A stretch of DNA of 25,226 bases, from contig JAFUCD010000035.1 in the NCBI GenBank assembly GCA_017459865.1, forward strand, positions 1 to 25,226. Direction: 5' to 3'. Every line of letters begins with the position of its first letter. The first letter of the stretch is position 1. Positions 16,449 to 25,226 of the stretch are shown piece by piece. The DNA is from Oscillospiraceae bacterium (GTDB lineage Bacteria > Bacillota_A > Clostridia > Oscillospirales > Oscillospiraceae). Both the position numbers and the translations under genes were made by a program. A model generated the notes under the pieces. That model worked only from the letters and a program-made list of their open reading frames with translations. It was not told the origin of the DNA and ran no database searches.

Positions 16449-16488
16449 AAACAAAAACGCCCCTGATCTGCTTTTCAGCAGATCAAGG
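16449..16488 (-). terminator. T-box leader terminator
   Basis: On the minus strand CCUUGAUCUGC and GCAGAUCAGGGG pair around UGAAAA, followed by CGUUUUUGUUU. The hairpin competes with the antiterminator formed by the T-box just upstream, and ends about 20 bases before the trpE start codon. Confidence 0.9.
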
Positions 16489-16725
16489 ACGAAATTCGTG
16501 AATTCCGCGGTGCCACCTTGATTCGCGGCCTTGGCCGCGCACTTGGCAGGGTACCATCATACCCTCGGCAACTGACGCGTGCCGACACGTCGCAGCTTTC
16601 ACTGCGCCCTCCGTGGACCATTGTGACGACCCGTTTGCCGCGGACTTCTCAGCCCTGCCCGCTCTCTGTAAGCGCGTATGCCGCCTTTACTCCCACTTCA
16701 TCGGTTTGAGATGCTTTATTGATTT
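16451..16725 (-). promoter_or_regulatory. T-box riboswitch, tRNA-Trp specific
   Basis: The leader between the promoter and trpE has the T-box layout. Stem I starts with GATGAAGTGGGAGTA and has an AGAGAGCGGG / GAAGTCCGCG distal region. Its specifier loop holds ACAAUGGUCC just before the closing CCAC, so the specifier codon is UGG (Trp) at 16618-16620. Further stems follow, including GGGTA/TACCC. The T-box AAGGTGGCACCGCGG sits at 16505-16519. Its UGGC bulge would pair with GCCA, matching the G discriminator base of bacterial tRNA-Trp. Uncharged tRNA-Trp should stabilise the antiterminator and allow trp operon transcription. Confidence 0.92.
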
Positions 16726-16731
16726 AACTCG

Positions 16732-16759
16732 ATTATACACAAATTCCGTGAATTGTCAA
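16732..16759 (-). promoter_or_regulatory. Promoter of the trp operon
   Basis: On the minus strand TTGACA (16754-16759) and TATAAT (16732-16737) are both perfect consensus boxes with a 16-base spacer. Transcription should begin near 16725, giving a leader of about 295 bases before trpE. Confidence 0.9.
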
Positions 16760-17600
16760 TTGGCTTTTTCTGAAAAATCACGCGAGGCTCACTTTTGTGA
16801 CTCTCGCCCCATCAATATCATATGCAGAGACAAAGTTTGCGGACCTGCATGTTTCTGCCTTTGCAATGCATCACTTTTCAATGACTGCCCTATCCGCTGA
16901 AAAGGAACGATTTCAGGGCTTTTCTTATGTCGAAAAGGAGAACCATTTTACTCATTTTTTGCTTCCGGGGGGCAATGGGGGGGCAATACAGAAATTGAAT
17001 TTCTGAAACCCTGCGACCTCCGGGTTAGAAATACGGATGCTTTCGTATGTTCGCTGAATATAAGAATGAATATTTTTCGTGCGATTGAAATATGTAACAA
17101 GCCAGCACAGGAGCGCGCTATCACCTGCCCCCTGAGCTGGCTTTTGAAGTCTCATGAGACCTCTTTATGTCGAAGCTATTCGTTCTTCAGATAAGGAACT
17201 TATCACGCTATTTGCGTTTCGTGGCTTTTCGATCAACCAGTTATCTGTTCATTTTCAACAAAGTCGGTTTGTGATTTTTCGCAGAATCAACAAAATTAAA
17301 AAAGTTCTGAAAAAGCCGCACATTTAGGGTCTTCTCACCGGCTGGTAAGTGAGGGGGAAAGTCTTTCTCATTGTTCCTTGAGAAGTGAATATCCAAATCG
17401 CTGAGACTTCAGTCCTGATGATATGCGAAAGCACGAGCCTTTTGGCATGGTACGGTTTATGTAGGGGCATCCGGCGCTCATTTCAAGGGCAGATATGAGC
17501 CGGCTGGATGTACTCCAAATCGGCTTTCCAAAAGTTTGGCGGAAAAAGGTGCGTCAGTTTCAGGTGCCGGTCCTTGCGCTGCTTTTGTGTTATTTCTATG
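16760..17600. other. Gene-free stretch with hairpins and short repeats
   Basis: No open frame here has a convincing start, ribosome binding site or protein family. Visible structure: direct repeat GGGGGGCAAT (16967-16976 and 16978-16987); palindrome CAGAAATT-G-AATTTCTG (16989-17005); a tRNA-like segment (17006-17035); AAGCCAGC/GCTGGCTT pairing 17099-17106 with 17136-17143 and followed by TT on the plus strand; CTCAC/GTGAG (17334-17353); TTCTCA/TGAGAA (17365-17384); and an imperfect long stem, CATCC..GCTCAT/ATGAGC..GGATG (17468-17510). None matches a riboswitch class known to me. Confidence 0.6.
17006..17035 (-). other. tRNA 3'-half-like fragment, possible attachment-site scar
   Basis: The minus strand reads TTTCTAACCCGGAGGTCGCAGG. 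This looks like the anticodon loop (TTTCTAA, anticodon TCT, Arg), variable region and start of the T arm of a tRNA gene. It then diverges at the T loop (GTTTCAG instead of GTTCGAAT). No D arm, acceptor stem or CCA end is present, and the anticodon stem is only half paired, so this is not a tRNA gene. Such fragments arise when integrative elements recombine at tRNA 3' ends. No integrase is nearby. Confidence 0.35.
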
Positions 17601-17669: not shown

Positions 17670-20600
17670 ATGACCAACCTTTGGAAGAGAAGCATCAGTC
17701 TGTTTTTGGTGGTTTTGACGCTGATGAGCGTCATGATCCCGGGCGTTTCTGCAACGGAGCCCACAGACCTCCCTGCCAGCGACAGCCCCATGCTCTATAA
17801 CACCACCGATTCCAGCAAGATGCCCAGAGAGACTGCGAGTTTGACGGACGTCTACGGCCAGATCGACACCGAGTCCGCCAATGAGATCGACTCCATGTTC
17901 TCCGACGAGGCATGGGCCAGATTCGCAGAGGATATGGACCGCATACTGGACTTCGAGCCGGTGGAGGACAAGGAGGCCGCACCGGTCTTAAAGAGCGCCG
18001 ACCACTTTGTGGAAGACGGCGGTCTGCAGGCCTATTTGAAGGGCGGAAATCTCCTCATGGGCTCCGAAGTTGGCCTCCAACCCAACAAGGAAGAAAAGGT
18101 GCAGGTGCTCGGCGCGGACACCAACGCCGGCGCGTGGGTCTATGTCGTGGACAAGGACGCCATGTGCTTTGTGGTGAAGGACACGGACGGCGCGGGCATT
18201 CCGAATGCGCTCGTGACGATCTCCTATCTCGACGACGCCGGCAAGCGCATCACGAAAAGCGCGGTGGCCACGGCGGGAAATACCCCCGGCATCGCCGTGT
18301 TTGACGACATCCCGGACGCCTTCTTCGGCGTCGTGGATATCCAGGCGGAGGGCTATCGGTCGCGCTCGGTGCTGGATAAGCAGATGGGCGCAGGGGAGCA
18401 GTATACCTATATGCTGGAGCCGACGAAAGAGAACGATCTGTACATCCGCGGCGTCGACCTCTCCGGCAAGGATCTGATGAACGAGGAGACGCCCCTCTCC
18501 CTTATGGACATCGACACGGAAAATCTCTCGTTGAAGGTGCTGGTCACAAAGTCCGGCAGCGCCAGCTTCCCCGGCTCCGTGGAGATCCAGTCCGCCAATC
18601 GCGGAAAGACCGTCCTTACCATCAGCAGCACCTCCGGCTATGCCTATGACAGCAACACCAGAGTCTACACCGCCGAAAAGCGCTGGGTGGAGCAGAAGGC
18701 GGGCCTGCTGCAGGACGGCGACGAGGTGGTCGTCAAGGTGGGCGGCGATACCTTTCCGCTGGAGAACCTCACCGTGAAAAACGCGGTGTTCAACCAGCTG
18801 GGCACCAACAAAACCGAAATGCCCGTCACCACCGAGTCCGCCCCCGGCAATCTGGCGGACAAGATGGGCGGCAACGGCATGCTCAACAGCACCTTCCAGA
18901 TGCTCCAGGTGCCGGTCACCGTGGGCTTTTTCCCCGACGGCAGCATGATCCTCATGGCTTCCTACGACATCACGAAGCTGGCGCCGGAGATGGAGACGAA
19001 ATACAGCTCCCTGTTCCAGAAATCCTGGAACCCCAAGAACCTGGATACCACCGAATCCGCCTTCGAGGTCTTTGAGCGAAGCTTCTGGGAAAACGCCGAG
19101 AAGGTGAAGGGCGGCTCGGAGGTCCTGAACTCTGCGGACAAAATCAAGTGCATTTCCAATAAAACCTACAACTTTTCCATGAGCTTCTCGGTGTTCCTCC
19201 GCTCCAACTACAACGCCGAGACCAAGGACCACTACGGCACCGGCGGCATCCTGTTCTGCGGCAGCTTTTCCGGCGGCGTCACGGAGTATTTCCTCTTCAC
19301 CGCGGGGCCGGTGGTGATCCCGGCCTACATCGGCTTTGAGGCGGGGATCGCCGTCAAGACCACGCTGAACGTGAGCTTCAACATGGACAAGCCGCCGGTG
19401 GGCGAGGCCAAAGACACCAAGTGGAAATATGCCAACAACGGCAGCGACGACTTGAGCGGCAGGATCGAGGTGATCGTGAGCTTCTCGGTATTCGGCGGTG
19501 TGGGCGTGAAGGGCGTACTGGGCGCTTGTGCCACCGGCTATGCGAACATGGACATCGCCACGGTGCTCGGAAAGGGCAGCGCCTCTCTGGTGGAGAACCC
19601 GCACACCTTCATCGACGTCCTTTACGGCATGCGGATCGAGTATTATCTGCTGTTCTATACCGGGGAGATCAATCTGGACTGCCTCCAGGACTCGAAGCGA
19701 ATCTACGACAGCGACTGGACCTCCGCTCAGCTGATGGCCGAGGCGGTGGAGAACATGGAATTTAAGGATATGGATCTGGCCGCCTGCGCGGAGAAAATGG
19801 TGCCCGCCCTGATGGATGACGGGAAGGAGCACGACGAATACTTCATTCTGCAGAACACCGAGCAGCTGGAGGGCAACGCCACGACCAAAACGCTGGATTA
19901 TGACGTCTACCCCGACACCCAGATCCAGATGGTCACCACCAAGACCTACAACGTGCTGTTTCGCATCTGCTCCAACGGCGTGCGGACGGACATCTACTAT
20001 CAGCGGCAGGACCCCGACACCGGCTTCTTCTACCAGGGCTATAACAAGGTCACCCTGCCGGAGGGGGAGACCCGCTCCGTCACGGAGTTCGTGGTGGTCC
20101 CCAACCAAACGAACCGCAGCGACCCGAACTATTGGGACAAGGTCTACATCGGCGCCATCGTTGCTGACAGCACGCTGCCGGAGAGCGAGCGTATGCGGAG
20201 TACCGACGTGGTGACCATGGTGGTGGATGTGGATGAGTGCGAGACCGTGAGCTCCGTCGTGGCGAGCGATCCCGCGAAGCAGGGCCAGGTGCTCTACAGC
20301 GCCCCCATGCCGGCGGGCAGAGAGAACTACTGCTCCGTGGCTTATGCAGCCACCTATCTGCAGGAGCAGAACGGCACGCAGATCAACAGTCTCAAGAGCT
20401 TCGTCAGCGCTGTCCCCACCTACACGAACTACTGGATCTCCAGCTGCGAGGCCGGGACGCCCGAGGTGCGCAGTTACACGAATCTCGGCCAGAACAAGAT
20501 CTGCTCCAACGGCGTCATCGCGCCAAACGAGCCCAGCTACTGGCAGGTGAACCCTTACGCCTCTTCGGACAAGTGGCTGGTGATGAAGGGATACGGCGCC

Positions 20601-22490
20601 AACGGCTTCTATGCGCCGGATCTGCGCTGCAACATCCGTGTGGACATCGATGGCATGGTCGACATCGCCGATATTTCCTCCGGCAAGCTGGACTTCAACA
20701 GTCTCGTCACCAACTGGAGGTATCTCAACGGCTGCAACTACTTCATCGCCGGAGACAGCGTCTACTGGATGAACAAAAAAACCAGCGGCTCCAGCTACGA
20801 ATGGGTGGTGGAGAAGGTGCAGGGCGGAAACGGCATCGTCTCCGTGGACAACTCCTACGCCATGATCAGCAACCAGGCCCAGTCGGCCATCTACATCATC
20901 GACGTGGTGGGCGACTATGACGTGGACGTGGCTGCCGACACCAGCACCCTGACAAGCAACAAAATTCAGGTTTATACCCTGATCACGGAGGAGAAGATCT
21001 CCGGTAAAGTAGTCGCCGAGCTCCACGGTCCTCTGGAGCTGAAGTTTGCCAAGGGAGAGCAGGTCAACATTTTTGCCGCGGCCTACAATCCCAACGAGTG
21101 CAAGGCTCGAGGCCTTTTCGTGGTCTACACCACCCCCAACACTAACTCCGAATCCAAATATAACACCAAAATCCGCACCTGGCAGCAGAACGCCGACAGC
21201 GGCATGCTGGTGACGGATGTGAAGATTCCGGATTATCTGGTGCGGGACGGACAGCCGGTGATCGATCTCTACGCCACAGTGAAAAACTACGGTTACTATA
21301 TCGGCGGCTGCGCGCAGTACACCGTCTATGATGAGACCGGCACCAAGCTGACCATGGTCTGGAACGGCGAGGACTCGGCGGATCTGAATATCGGCGGTAC
21401 AGAGCTCTATCCCGGTGACAGCCGCGTGGATCATCTCCAGGTTCGGCCGAATCCCAACTGGGATCTCAACCAGGAGCACGAGATCATCGTGGATCTCCGT
21501 GCCAACCGATATAACGGCGACATGGACGATTTCGTGAACTCTGCCGCCCTCAAGGCGGACAACATTTCGTTTACCGCCCGGAATTCGGTGATCGGCGACA
21601 AACACTATGTCAGCACCACGTTTACCAACAACACTCTCATCGGGGGCCGGACGCCGATCATTCAGGCGGTGCTCCGCTATGCCGATGAGAGCAAAACCCG
21701 GACGCTGACCTTCCATCTGCCCACGAAGGAGCCGATCGTCCAGTTCACCGCGTCGGACGAGGATATGACCGGGCAGGTCTATCACTACGACATCGACATG
21801 GAGCCACTCTGGGAGGATGGGCTTCTGGGCGTCACGTTCTCGCTGGTGAACGATGCCGGCGAGCAGCAGTCCAACGAGGCGGTCTATGTGGCCAACCCGA
21901 TGGAGAACACCAAGCCCGGCTCCGGCACGCACGACTGCCCCTCGGCGCAATTTGCGGACATTGACCAGACCGCATGGTACCACGAGGCGGTGGACTACGC
22001 CGTCACGAATGGACTCATGAAGGGCGTTGCAGACGACGCCTTTGACCCCAACGGCGTCACCACGCGCGCGATGCTGGTCACGATCCTCTATCGCATGGAG
22101 GGAGAGCCGGCTGTCAGCGGCAAGAGCCCATTCACGGACGTGAAAGCCGACCTGTGGTATACCGACGCGATCAAGTGGGCCAGCAAAAACGGCGTCGTGG
22201 AGGGCTATGGAAACGGCAAATTCGGCCCGGCGGACACCCTCTCCCGCGAACAGTTTGCCACGATCCTGATGCGCTATGCCAAGATGAAGGATCATGATAC
22301 AAGCAAAGCTGCGGATCTCTCCGGATATACGGATGCGGCGACCATCAGCGCCTGGGCGAAGGACGCCATGCAATGGGCGAATGCGGAGAAACTCATCATT
22401 GGCCGCACGGAAACGACGCTGGTCCCTCTGGGAGAGACCACACGCGCGGAGGCAGCCGCGATCCTGATGCGGTTTCAGGAAAACACATAA
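17670..22490 (+). CDS. Large secreted SLH-domain surface protein (1606 aa)
   Basis: A Sec signal peptide covers residues 1-28 (KRSISLFLVVLTLMSVMIPG, cleavage after VSA). A carboxypeptidase-regulatory-like beta module (AMCFVVKDTDGAGIPNALVT to FFGVVDIQAEGYRSRS) spans about 165-240. The long middle is unrecognised. It includes a Gly/Val/Phe-rich stretch at about 520-670 (GVTEYFLFTAGPVVIPAYIG, VFGGVGVKGVLGACATG), a Tyr/Trp-rich section at about 900-1080, and beta-rich CARDB/Ig-like sequence to about 1400. Three SLH domains (about 1425-1480, 1488-1540 and 1545-1606; FADIDQTAWYHEAVDYAVTN, FTDVKADLWYTDAIKWASKN, DAMQWANAEKLIIGR) should anchor it to pyruvylated wall polymer. The ATG has AAAGGGG upstream. 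Two lipoprotein genes follow without a terminator. Role unknown; an adhesin, scaffold or enzyme is possible, and no catalytic motif is seen. Confidence 0.95.
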   Translation: MTNLWKRSISLFLVVLTLMSVMIPGVSATEPTDLPASDSPMLYNTTDSSKMPRETASLTDVYGQIDTESANEIDSMFSDEAWARFAEDMDRILDFEPVEDKEAAPVLKSADHFVEDGGLQAYLKGGNLLMGSEVGLQPNKEEKVQVLGADTNAGAWVYVVDKDAMCFVVKDTDGAGIPNALVTISYLDDAGKRITKSAVATAGNTPGIAVFDDIPDAFFGVVDIQAEGYRSRSVLDKQMGAGEQYTYMLEPTKENDLYIRGVDLSGKDLMNEETPLSLMDIDTENLSLKVLVTKSGSASFPGSVEIQSANRGKTVLTISSTSGYAYDSNTRVYTAEKRWVEQKAGLLQDGDEVVVKVGGDTFPLENLTVKNAVFNQLGTNKTEMPVTTESAPGNLADKMGGNGMLNSTFQMLQVPVTVGFFPDGSMILMASYDITKLAPEMETKYSSLFQKSWNPKNLDTTESAFEVFERSFWENAEKVKGGSEVLNSADKIKCISNKTYNFSMSFSVFLRSNYNAETKDHYGTGGILFCGSFSGGVTEYFLFTAGPVVIPAYIGFEAGIAVKTTLNVSFNMDKPPVGEAKDTKWKYANNGSDDLSGRIEVIVSFSVFGGVGVKGVLGACATGYANMDIATVLGKGSASLVENPHTFIDVLYGMRIEYYLLFYTGEINLDCLQDSKRIYDSDWTSAQLMAEAVENMEFKDMDLAACAEKMVPALMDDGKEHDEYFILQNTEQLEGNATTKTLDYDVYPDTQIQMVTTKTYNVLFRICSNGVRTDIYYQRQDPDTGFFYQGYNKVTLPEGETRSVTEFVVVPNQTNRSDPNYWDKVYIGAIVADSTLPESERMRSTDVVTMVVDVDECETVSSVVASDPAKQGQVLYSAPMPAGRENYCSVAYAATYLQEQNGTQINSLKSFVSAVPTYTNYWISSCEAGTPEVRSYTNLGQNKICSNGVIAPNEPSYWQVNPYASSDKWLVMKGYGANGFYAPDLRCNIRVDIDGMVDIADISSGKLDFNSLVTNWRYLNGCNYFIAGDSVYWMNKKTSGSSYEWVVEKVQGGNGIVSVDNSYAMISNQAQSAIYIIDVVGDYDVDVAADTSTLTSNKIQVYTLITEEKISGKVVAELHGPLELKFAKGEQVNIFAAAYNPNECKARGLFVVYTTPNTNSESKYNTKIRTWQQNADSGMLVTDVKIPDYLVRDGQPVIDLYATVKNYGYYIGGCAQYTVYDETGTKLTMVWNGEDSADLNIGGTELYPGDSRVDHLQVRPNPNWDLNQEHEIIVDLRANRYNGDMDDFVNSAALKADNISFTARNSVIGDKHYVSTTFTNNTLIGGRTPIIQAVLRYADESKTRTLTFHLPTKEPIVQFTASDEDMTGQVYHYDIDMEPLWEDGLLGVTFSLVNDAGEQQSNEAVYVANPMENTKPGSGTHDCPSAQFADIDQTAWYHEAVDYAVTNGLMKGVADDAFDPNGVTTRAMLVTILYRMEGEPAVSGKSPFTDVKADLWYTDAIKWASKNGVVEGYGNGKFGPADTLSREQFATILMRYAKMKDHDTSKAADLSGYTDAATISAWAKDAMQWANAEKLIIGRTETTLVPLGETTRAEAAAILMRFQENT

Positions 22491-22535
22491 ATCATGAAAG
22501 TAACGGTGATTTCAACGAAAAAGAGAAGGAAGAGC

Positions 22536-23348
22536 ATGTTGAATCGGAAAAGGATTTGGATCGTTCTGTTGGCGGTGCTGATGCTGTTTTCTGTTGCGGG
22601 ATGCGCGGGAAAAGCGCAAACCCAGTCGGAGTCTCGGATCGGGATCATTTCAGCCATGGATAATGAGGTTTCGCTGCTGCTCTCTGAGGCGGAGATCGAC
22701 CATGTGGACACCATCGGCGGCGTGGAGTTTCATGTGGGAACGCTGCATGGTCAGCCTGTCGTAATCATGCGCTCCGGCATCGGAAAGGTCATGGCCGCCT
22801 CCGCGGCCACAGCTATGCTGAACAATTACCCGATCTCGAATGTGATCTTTACCGGCGTTGCGGGAGCCGTCGGTGACGAGACCCGGGTCCTGGACCAGGT
22901 GATTGCAACGCGCCTGGTGCAGCACGATTACGGCACCATGACGAACGAAGGTTTTGTCTGGGCCAGCGGCGTAGACGGAGAAGAAGACGACGAAAAAGGC
23001 TATTATTTCTGCGACCAGGATCTGGTAACGCTTGCTTATGACAGCGCTGTTCAGGTGATGGGCGAGGAGCATGTATTCAAAGGAACGATCGCGACGGGGG
23101 ATCAGTTTGTCGCCTCGGAGGAATACGTGAAGACGCTGCAGCAGAGCTTTGGCGCCATTGCCTGCGAAATGGAGGGAGCCTCTATCGCGGCAGTCTGCAC
23201 GCAGTATGAGGTACCGTTTGTGGTCATTCGTGCCATGTCGGACAAGGCGGACGGCAACGCACATGACAGCATTGAAAACATGGGTGATCTGGCGGCAGAC
23301 AACTCCAGCCGGATTGTTATGCAGATGCTCGACTCGATGCAAAAATAA
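22536..23348 (+). CDS. Lipoprotein 5'-methylthioadenosine/S-adenosylhomocysteine nucleosidase
   Basis: 270 residues from ATG at 22536, with AAGGA about six bases upstream. An ATG at 22494 gives a longer basic leader but has no spaced site. Residues 1-23 are a lipoprotein signal: KRIWIVLLAVLMLF then SVAGC with C23 as the lipid anchor. The rest is a whole MTA/SAH nucleosidase (PNP/UDP phosphorylase fold). E44 in IGIISAMDNEV equals E. coli MtnN E12, M212-E213 in CEMEGAS equal M173-E174, and D236 in RAMSDKADG equals D197. Spacings match exactly, so cleavage of MTA, SAH or 5'-deoxyadenosine to adenine and the thioribosyl product is expected. This enzyme is usually cytoplasmic, and here it should sit outside the membrane. 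It lies 45 bases after the SLH gene and 34 before a solute-binding lipoprotein. Confidence 0.93.
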   Translation: MLNRKRIWIVLLAVLMLFSVAGCAGKAQTQSESRIGIISAMDNEVSLLLSEAEIDHVDTIGGVEFHVGTLHGQPVVIMRSGIGKVMAASAATAMLNNYPISNVIFTGVAGAVGDETRVLDQVIATRLVQHDYGTMTNEGFVWASGVDGEEDDEKGYYFCDQDLVTLAYDSAVQVMGEEHVFKGTIATGDQFVASEEYVKTLQQSFGAIACEMEGASIAAVCTQYEVPFVVIRAMSDKADGNAHDSIENMGDLAADNSSRIVMQMLDSMQK

Positions 23349-23382
23349 AGGACGCAGCCCAAAAAACCGGAGGAATCGGAAC

Positions 23383-25226
23383 GTGACAGATCACAAAAAC
23401 AAACAGAAATGGACGGCGATCGTCTGTCTCCTGGCGCTTGCGCTGTGCCTGCTGACAGGCTGCGGCGCAAAGGGCAAAGAGGCGATCACCGCGCTTGACC
23501 AGCTTAACGAGCCGGGCACGAAGATCGGCATGGCGAATGATACGAATGATGACAAGCTGGTGGCTGAGAGGCTCCCGCAGGCAGGACTTGAATACTATCA
23601 GGACGCCATGACCGGATACATCGCGGTGAGCCAGGGAAAGCTGGACGCCTTTGTATACGGAAAGCTTACAATGGAAACAGCCATCCGAAACGGCATGCAG
23701 GGCGTCCGACTCCTGGACGAGACCTTGGGGGAGAGCTATACCATGGCGGTTGCGATCGCCCCGAACACAAAGATCCCTGATCTGGAGAATCAGATCAATG
23801 CTTTTCTGGATGAGGTGAAGCGGGATGGAACGCTGGACGACATGGTCGACCGTTGGCTCGTTCGCAAGGATGAAACGATGCCGGAAATCCCGATCCCGGA
23901 GAGCTCTGAGCTCCATCTGGTCATAGGGACCTCCGGCGTCTATGAGCCCTTTACTTACTATGTGGGCACCGAGCTGCGGGGCTATGATATCGAGCTCGCC
24001 TATCGCTTCGCGGCCTGGCTGGGGGCGTCGGTGGAGTTCAAGGTCTATGACTACAACGGAATCATCGCGGCGGCGCAGGGCGGCGATGTGGACTGCGTCT
24101 TTGCCGCGCTCTTCATCACGCCCGAACGTCAGGAGGCGCTCCGTTTTTCGCAGCCGACCTATGTGGAGGAGATCGCCGTCATGGTGCGCGATGAAGGCGC
24201 GGCGCCGGAAGCATCGGGCGGCACCACGCACTGGCAGGACTACAACGGCAAAAAACTTGGCGTTCTGGTGGGCCCGCTGATGGAGGACGCGGCCGCGGAG
24301 TTTTTCCCCGACAGCGAATACTTATACTTTGACAGTTATCCGGACTGTGCGACCGCCCTGCTCACAGGCAAGATCGACGGCTTTCTCGGCGACGAGCCGG
24401 GTATGATCTCCATGCATGCGGAGCAGCCGGAGATCGACTATATTCATGAGCCCTTGACTGAAAACAACTATGCCTTTGCCTTCCGGAAGGACGATCCTGA
24501 AAGCGCTGCATTGTGCGAGGAGCTGAACGAGTTCCTTTCGCGCGCCTGGGAAGACGGCACCATGGACGAGATCGCGGAGACCTGGCTTGGTGTGGATGAG
24601 GCACGGAAGGTCGTGGACATGTCCGACCTGACAGGGGAAAACGGAACGATCCGGGTCGCGACCACTTCCACGGATATGCCCTGGTCGTATATCAAAGACG
24701 GGAAGAATGTCGGTTATGATATCGACCTCGTGGTGCGCTTCTGCCGTGACAGAGGCTATGGGCTGGAGATTGGAGATATGGACTTTGCCGGACGCATCCC
24801 GGCGGTTCAATCCGGAAAATACGACTTCACCACTGACATGAACGTGACGCCGGAGCGAGAGGAACAGGTGTTGTTTTCCAGCCCGACGGCTCACGGAGGC
24901 ATCGTGCTTGCGGTACGCGCGGCTGATCTCGATGCGCCGGGCTCAGAAGATGACGCGGTTGTACCGACGCTTGCTGATATGGAGCACGCCTCCATCGCCG
25001 TGCTGTCGGGAACGACCTTCCCAGAGGTTGTGGAACGACGTCTGCCTGATGCAGAGATCCTGTATTACAATTCGACGGCCGACGAGGTAAACGCCCTTAA
25101 GAGCGGGAAAGCGGATGCAGTCGCGATCGATGAGCCTGTTGCGCGCAATATGATGGCGGAAGATGACTCGCTTTCCATGGTATCCGAGAAGATCGACACC
25201 ATCGATTACGCCTTTGCATTCGGAAA
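23383..25226 (+). CDS. Lipoprotein with tandem family-3 solute-binding modules, 3' end outside window
   Basis: GTG at 23383 follows GGAGG by nine bases. The frame stays open to the window edge (614 codons). Residues 1-27 are a lipoprotein signal (WTAIVCLLALALCLLTGC, anchor C27). Module 1 (about 35-165; GTKIGMANDTND, then LDAFVYGKLTMETA and DLENQINAFLDEV) is short and lacks most of the N-terminal lobe. Module 2 (about 180-405; LHLVIGTSGVYEPFTYY, GYDIELAYRFAAWLG, FITPERQEALRFSQPTY, DGFLGDEPG) is complete. Module 3 (from about 420; IRVATTSTDMPWSYIKDG, VGYDIDLVVRF, MNVTPEREEQVLFSSPT, ADAVAIDEP) is cut by the end. These are SBP_bac_3 folds for amino acids and similar solutes. A fused ABC permease or a sensor output domain may follow outside the window. 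Confidence 0.92.
   Translation, partial: MTDHKNKQKWTAIVCLLALALCLLTGCGAKGKEAITALDQLNEPGTKIGMANDTNDDKLVAERLPQAGLEYYQDAMTGYIAVSQGKLDAFVYGKLTMETAIRNGMQGVRLLDETLGESYTMAVAIAPNTKIPDLENQINAFLDEVKRDGTLDDMVDRWLVRKDETMPEIPIPESSELHLVIGTSGVYEPFTYYVGTELRGYDIELAYRFAAWLGASVEFKVYDYNGIIAAAQGGDVDCVFAALFITPERQEALRFSQPTYVEEIAVMVRDEGAAPEASGGTTHWQDYNGKKLGVLVGPLMEDAAAEFFPDSEYLYFDSYPDCATALLTGKIDGFLGDEPGMISMHAEQPEIDYIHEPLTENNYAFAFRKDDPESAALCEELNEFLSRAWEDGTMDEIAETWLGVDEARKVVDMSDLTGENGTIRVATTSTDMPWSYIKDGKNVGYDIDLVVRFCRDRGYGLEIGDMDFAGRIPAVQSGKYDFTTDMNVTPEREEQVLFSSPTAHGGIVLAVRAADLDAPGSEDDAVVPTLADMEHASIAVLSGTTFPEVVERRLPDAEILYYNSTADEVNALKSGKADAVAIDEPVARNMMAEDDSLSMVSEKIDTIDYAFAFG

Follow-up and report, generated by a model that had tools for sequence, protein, structure and literature searches.

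The window, the whole stretch of 25,226 nucleotides analysed here (contig JAFUCD010000035.1, from an Oscillospiraceae bacterium), ends in two consecutive genes on the forward strand. One encodes a nucleosidase of the MtnN type with an export signal; the other, which starts at a GTG 34 nt after the nucleosidase gene and has Pfam matches to SBP_bac_3, runs off the end of the window (Table 1). No terminator-like site was reported in the 34-nt gap. The large S-layer homology (SLH) protein ahead of the two genes had no counterpart beside the nucleosidase in the related loci L001 and L005; a 1461-residue open reading frame lying antisense to it (17988-22373) is probably a composition artefact. Further upstream, on the minus strand, the 16450-16760 segment that precedes trpE of a trp operon contains a 12/12 sigma-70-like match (16759-16732) and a terminator-like hairpin of 15 pairs (16491-16458), and gave no Rfam match. 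It is a possible attenuation leader judging by these sites, which overall (sigma-70-like and terminator-like) are as frequent as in shuffles.

Table 1. Features of the nucleosidase-importer region; positions are those of the window.
Feature	Positions	Strand	Basis or remark
Protein of 1606 aa with a signal and three matches to S-layer homology domains	17670..22490	+	45 nt ahead of 22536
Shine-Dalgarno-like AAGGAAG ahead of nucleosidase start 22536	22526..22532	+	sequence
MtnN-type nucleosidase, putatively exported, 270 aa	22536..23348	+	Pfam, NCBIfam and structure-database matches
Lipoprotein signal peptide, lipobox VAG-Cys23	22536..22604	+	sequence; common among close homologues
PNP_UDP_1 catalytic domain; E44, E213, D236 = E. 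coli E12, E174, D197	22635..23330	+	Pfam and alignment
Clade-specific loop G133..N137..F140..W142, against E. coli residues 101-109	22932..22961	+	alignment
Shine-Dalgarno-like GGAGGAA ahead of importer GTG	23369..23375	+	sequence
ABC importer subunit of the fused type, truncated at the window end; relatives have about 1000 aa, with lipid anchor, array of SBP domains and permease	23383..25226	+	Pfam and homologues
Importer lipoprotein signal, lipobox Cys27	23383..23463	+	sequence
Apparently permuted binding unit 1 (lobe 2 then lobe 1)	23473..24192	+	boundaries transferred from P0121
Apparently permuted binding unit 2	24223..24933	+	sequence statistics and structure prediction
Start of apparently permuted binding unit 3 (lobe 2), cut by window end	24970..25226	+	boundary from P0121

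The nucleosidase matches PF01048 (PNP_UDP_1) with an E-value of 6e-48 and exceeds the NCBIfam cut-offs of the MTA/SAH nucleosidase equivalogs (PRK05584, 215.9 bits for a cut-off of 169; TIGR01704, 145.3 for a cut-off of 73.8); solved MTA/SAH nucleosidases are close to it (best E 2e-36). A preliminary description of this DNA had placed a nucleosidase with intact catalytic residues behind a lipobox, and both parts are borne out: the residues at the three E. coli positions, presumably catalytic, are aligned and present, and the signal has its n-region, its hydrophobic core and the cysteine of the VAGC lipobox. That description had also raised the chance of a misassigned start. An alternative ATG in the same frame, at 22494, lacks an obvious ribosome-binding site, unlike 22536. 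Of 7722 homologues the best 120 were sorted by a permissive script, which labelled 103 as lipoproteins (a few of which may be plain Sec signals), six as signals without a lipobox cysteine and 11 as unclassified; manual reading found a lipobox in two of the six (P0035, P0110) and in seven of the 11, and no signal in P0044, P0047, P0051 and P0055. Because the homologues carry the signal too, a start-site error does not account for it.

A genome scan confirmed at least 562 stretches, of which the best 80 (L001-L080) were kept, and relatives were placed on a quick maximum-likelihood tree of 100 rows. Loci L001-L059 share 48-81% identity with the query over the matched segment, and L060-L080 share 36-44%. 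The window and L001-L059 provide 61 rows, that is 57 proteins of which four are tandem, with L005, L041 and L051 excluded from the clade rows since their N-terminus is replaced or cut. These 61 rows form a single clade (SH-aLRT 100) on a stem branch of 1.04. An export signal occurs in 54 of the 57 proteins – 32 lipoprotein, 19 Sec and three Sec plus SLH, by our own rules (15 labels set by hand) and not by SignalP – and the three members lacking it (L033, L043, L048) are nested. Rows that fall outside mostly have no signal (35 of 39), and the cytoplasmic MtnN paralogues from clade-bearing genomes branch there. The exceptions are L060:278-973 (Cetobacterium), L061:9001-9744 (Oceanospirillales) and L062:9001-9687 (Enterovibrio), the last with a classical-looking loop in the alignment, and L081, the second MtnN of the Lachnospiraceae isolate AC2029, which also carries L014.

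SLH domains fix proteins to the wall outside the cell. Three relatives, from MAGs titled Oscillospiraceae, Clostridiaceae and Dysosmobacter (L054:8125-10281, L055:8044-10263 and L058:8077-10269), are organized as signal, nucleosidase, nucleosidase and SLH, with two or three SLH matches each, and so provide an independent hint that the clade acts outside the cell. The proposal of an extracytoplasmic type of MtnN thus agrees with a clade made up mostly of relatives with export signals, three of them with S-layer domains. L056 is also tandem, with the SLH match absent. MtnN is a homodimer in the excerpts consulted of PMC6371041, so a tandem chain could by itself make up the dimer.

The spirochaete label, taken like all taxon labels from record titles, changes at least four times on the tree within the clade, which suggests transfer between phyla. 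Few genomes in the groups sampled carry a member of the exported clade: the nucleosidase was found in four of 103 genomes from the family to which G004 belongs, one of the four being G004 itself (E 1e-60; up to 25 first-look candidates scored per genome), and in one of the 295 genomes of the order of G007, which is G007 itself (E 1e-90; up to 8 candidates). Six of 59 loci (L007, L011, L016, L021, L030, L057), and doubtfully a seventh (L028), have a tRNA gene no more than about 500 nt from the nucleosidase, perhaps as an insertion site. We found no description of this clade in the PMC literature searched, a body of text that most subscription papers fall outside.

The downstream gene had been read as a stand-alone binding lipoprotein with tandem SBP_bac_3 modules. 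The lipobox and the modules stand; the stand-alone character does not. Among the best 120 of 1002 homologues, 107 are 950 residues long or longer, and PF00528 permease matches occur in all of the 107 long homologues listed except P0129 and P0179. P0121, which shares 81% identity with the window protein, has SBP_bac_3 and the PF00528 permease in one chain. Given that the long homologues carry the permease, the window gene is the front of an importer subunit rather than a free binding lipoprotein. In relatives an ATPase gene adjoins it.

The SBP_bac_3 repeats appear to be circularly permuted, with lobe 2 preceding lobe 1 in place of the canonical lobe 1 then lobe 2 of GlnPQ-type binding domains; this reading draws on the lengths of linkers, distance correlation, the shuffling of units and predicted structures. 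Modelled in the permuted register, unit 2 is predicted to fold alone (pLDDT 93.9, pTM 0.87). The best matches of the permuted unit in VIA-align were OpuAC structures (2b4l, 2b4m), while at E 0.001 an OpuAC Pfam match was absent and the families listed were SBP_bac_3 and Lig_chan-Glu_bd only. Importers of relatives mostly have three units, according to sequence statistics and prediction, and the array would be reshuffled unit by unit. Unit 2 has Asp in 59/60 and Arg in 60/60 cases at places which we take to hold the ligand in amino-acid binders. The PMC literature searched, which leaves most subscription papers aside, yielded no report of a permuted SBP_bac_3 array.

The preliminary description had suggested tabulating SBP_bac_3 genes downstream of lipobox-bearing MtnN homologues. 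With importer-derived profiles, a set of SBP, permease and ATPase was found downstream, on the same strand and within 2 kb, at only two of the 50 loci of L001-L059 that have at least 1.5 kb of downstream sequence, so that the pairing is only weakly kept. In L005 the set adjoins the nucleosidase (L005:8800-9660), in which an unrelated N-terminus takes the place of the signal and of the stretch bearing the first catalytic Glu; P0047, found on 27 contigs, has this N-terminus too, so that the L005 form is probably a real variant. In L001 the set has the same orientation, lies 1.8 kb off and is separated by a TMEM164-like gene. The set of L009 is 4.6 kb from the nucleosidase. At a spirochaete locus (L029:1-2044), SBP, permease and ATPase matches lie upstream and divergent from the nucleosidase.

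Across the 103 genomes of one family, four have the nucleosidase, eight an importer match (E 1e-120; five of them whole-query) and three have both (hypergeometric p 2e-4 using the five whole-query importers, uncorrected for kinship). In G002 the two genes are on separate contigs, and no nucleosidase shows in the roughly 1.5 kb ahead of its importer; G097 and G093 have the importer and no nucleosidase match, and G101 has the nucleosidase and no importer match. The two genes thus co-occur in one lineage, with an arrangement that is not strongly kept. Co-transcription is plausible in the window lineage; a pathway linking enzyme and importer is unsupported beyond that one lineage.

Residues aligned to E. 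coli M9, E12, F151, M173, E174, R193, S196 and D197 are identical in all 61 clade rows. The invariance of E12, E174 and D197, which we take to be the catalytic residues of E. coli MtnN, points to selection on catalysis. The loop, by contrast, is unlike that of other MtnN. At the D101 position all 61 clade rows have G, where 32 of 38 other MtnN rows have D; the F105 position is N in 51/61 and another polar residue in at least eight more, so that it is polar (N, D, Q, S, H) in at least 59/61, against hydrophobic residues in 37 of the 38 others; and the Y109 position, variable elsewhere, is W throughout (61/61). Two further positions are less telling: F at Y107 (60/61) is not diagnostic, as outside rows vary too, and the F207 position is Y in 48/61 and otherwise I, V, F or M (Y or F in 49/61), the window protein having I (I246), as compared with F in 20/38 and Y in 18/38 of the other rows. 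We presume that the loop with F105 lines the 5'-alkylthio site and is contributed by the partner subunit; the literature searched yielded no list of MtnN 5'-pocket residues. The clade-wide change makes the MTA/SAH label of the window enzyme uncertain, and the substrate may differ.

Among 36 clade-bearing genomes, mostly MAGs of which completeness was not given – so that absences weigh little – LuxS was found in 14, SAH hydrolase in nine and a PurH-type match in 25, which suggests that most are not obviously purine auxotrophs. A second MtnN without a signal is present in 14: in 12 it exceeds the NCBIfam cut-off, and in two it scores below and lies beside LuxS. Of the four genomes nearest to the window, G001, G002 and G004 have SAH hydrolase and no LuxS match, and G003 has neither.

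The explanation that we favor, with moderate confidence in it as a whole, is the release of adenine at the cell surface from extracellular adenosyl nucleosides. The nucleosidase would be lipid-anchored on the outer face of the membrane, a location that we infer from the export signal, and its MtnN acid-base machinery, the residues of which are in place, would hydrolyse the glycosidic bond of adenosyl-type nucleosides outside the cell, where the released adenine would be open to uptake. The gene is a patchy accessory one, largely of gut and rumen anaerobes, followed in the window by the gene for a subunit of an amino-acid-type ABC importer (lipid anchor, apparently permuted SBP_bac_3 units and permease domain), functional coupling to which is unproven. 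The changed loop, the PurH-type match in most clade-bearing genomes and the three nested members that lack a signal count against this explanation. An unlikely reading, argued for by the polar F105 position, the change from D101 to G, the invariant W and the long stem branch, is that the clade is a distinct secreted nucleosidase that has shifted to another nucleoside, for example adenosine or SAH with their polar 5' groups; yet the window enzyme still scores above the MTA/SAH equivalog cut-off, the F207 and Y107 positions do not discriminate, and the roles of the 5'-pocket residues are presumed ones. The catalytic invariance noted above also stands against a moonlighting adhesin with catalysis secondary, which we consider very improbable despite the lipid or SLH anchors and the precedent of Borrelia Bgp, both MTAN and glycosaminoglycan binder in the excerpts of PMC7557402.

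Further alternatives involve the fate of the product. A functional pair, in which the enzyme cuts MTA, SAH or 5'-deoxyadenosine outside and the importer takes up an amino-acid-bearing or ribosyl product, would fit the adjacency in the window and L005, the shared orientation in L001, the co-occurrence in three family genomes (kinship ignored) and the Asp and Arg of unit 2 at the presumed ligand places. We regard it as quite improbable: the genes are near or adjacent at so few loci, the L005 partner is without signal and first catalytic Glu, and G002, G097, G093 and G101 have them on separate contigs or one alone. The least probable reading, also put forward in the preliminary description, is an AI-2 or quorum system fed by external S-ribosylhomocysteine. 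LuxS would be cytoplasmic, and its occurrence in a minority of clade-bearing genomes (mostly MAGs) and in none of the nearest four does not favor it; SAH hydrolase in three of those four offers an alternative route for intracellular SAH and leaves the AI-2 reading unsupported. What speaks for it is that MtnN generally makes the LuxS substrate (PMC6371041, as excerpted). Distinctly improbable, finally, is a wider combination: a distinct secreted nucleosidase with a new 5'-side preference, spread between phyla in animal guts, and in the window lineage an amino-acid-bearing product caught by a permuted SBP_bac_3 importer tethered at both ends (lipid in front, permease behind). Returning to adenine release at the surface: if the clade is indeed external, it offers a testable route of purine or sulphur salvage.

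Compared with E. coli MtnN/Pfs (b0159; PDB 5ue1 among others), the window enzyme is alike in its Pfam and NCBIfam matches, catalytic residues and full domain, but its clade has an export signal, an altered loop and a separate place on the tree. According to the introduction of PMC7557402, most bacteria have just one MTAN gene, the product of which is cytoplasmic, and Borrelia, with its exported MTANs, is the special case; a clade with export signals in several phyla, with S-layer tandem forms, would widen that picture. Bgp and the plasmid MtnN of Borrelia burgdorferi share with the window enzyme export of an MTAN through the membrane (same excerpts); compared by description only, the window clade differs in being lipid- or S-layer-anchored and mostly of Bacillota and Spirochaetota. 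The importer resembles GlnPQ of Lactococcus lactis (PDB 6h30) in that SBP domains of the amino-acid type, arranged in tandem, are fused to a permease, and differs in that its units appear permuted, are mostly three instead of two and follow an N-terminal lipobox (GlnPQ as described in the excerpts of PMC8025302). Circular permutation is described among glycine-betaine-binding proteins (PMC2395249, in part), and OpuAC of Bacillus subtilis (2b4l, 2b4m) has the permuted-unit topology in another sequence family. Treponema MglB-2 is likewise a natural circular permutation and a tethered binder with relatives in gut Gram-positives, but is a Type I sugar binder of a single domain, permuted elsewhere (PMC4990184, as excerpted). 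Besides these, the importer would add a further natural case of circular permutation, and its array would be well suited to studying what a binding domain tethered at both ends gains from permutation.
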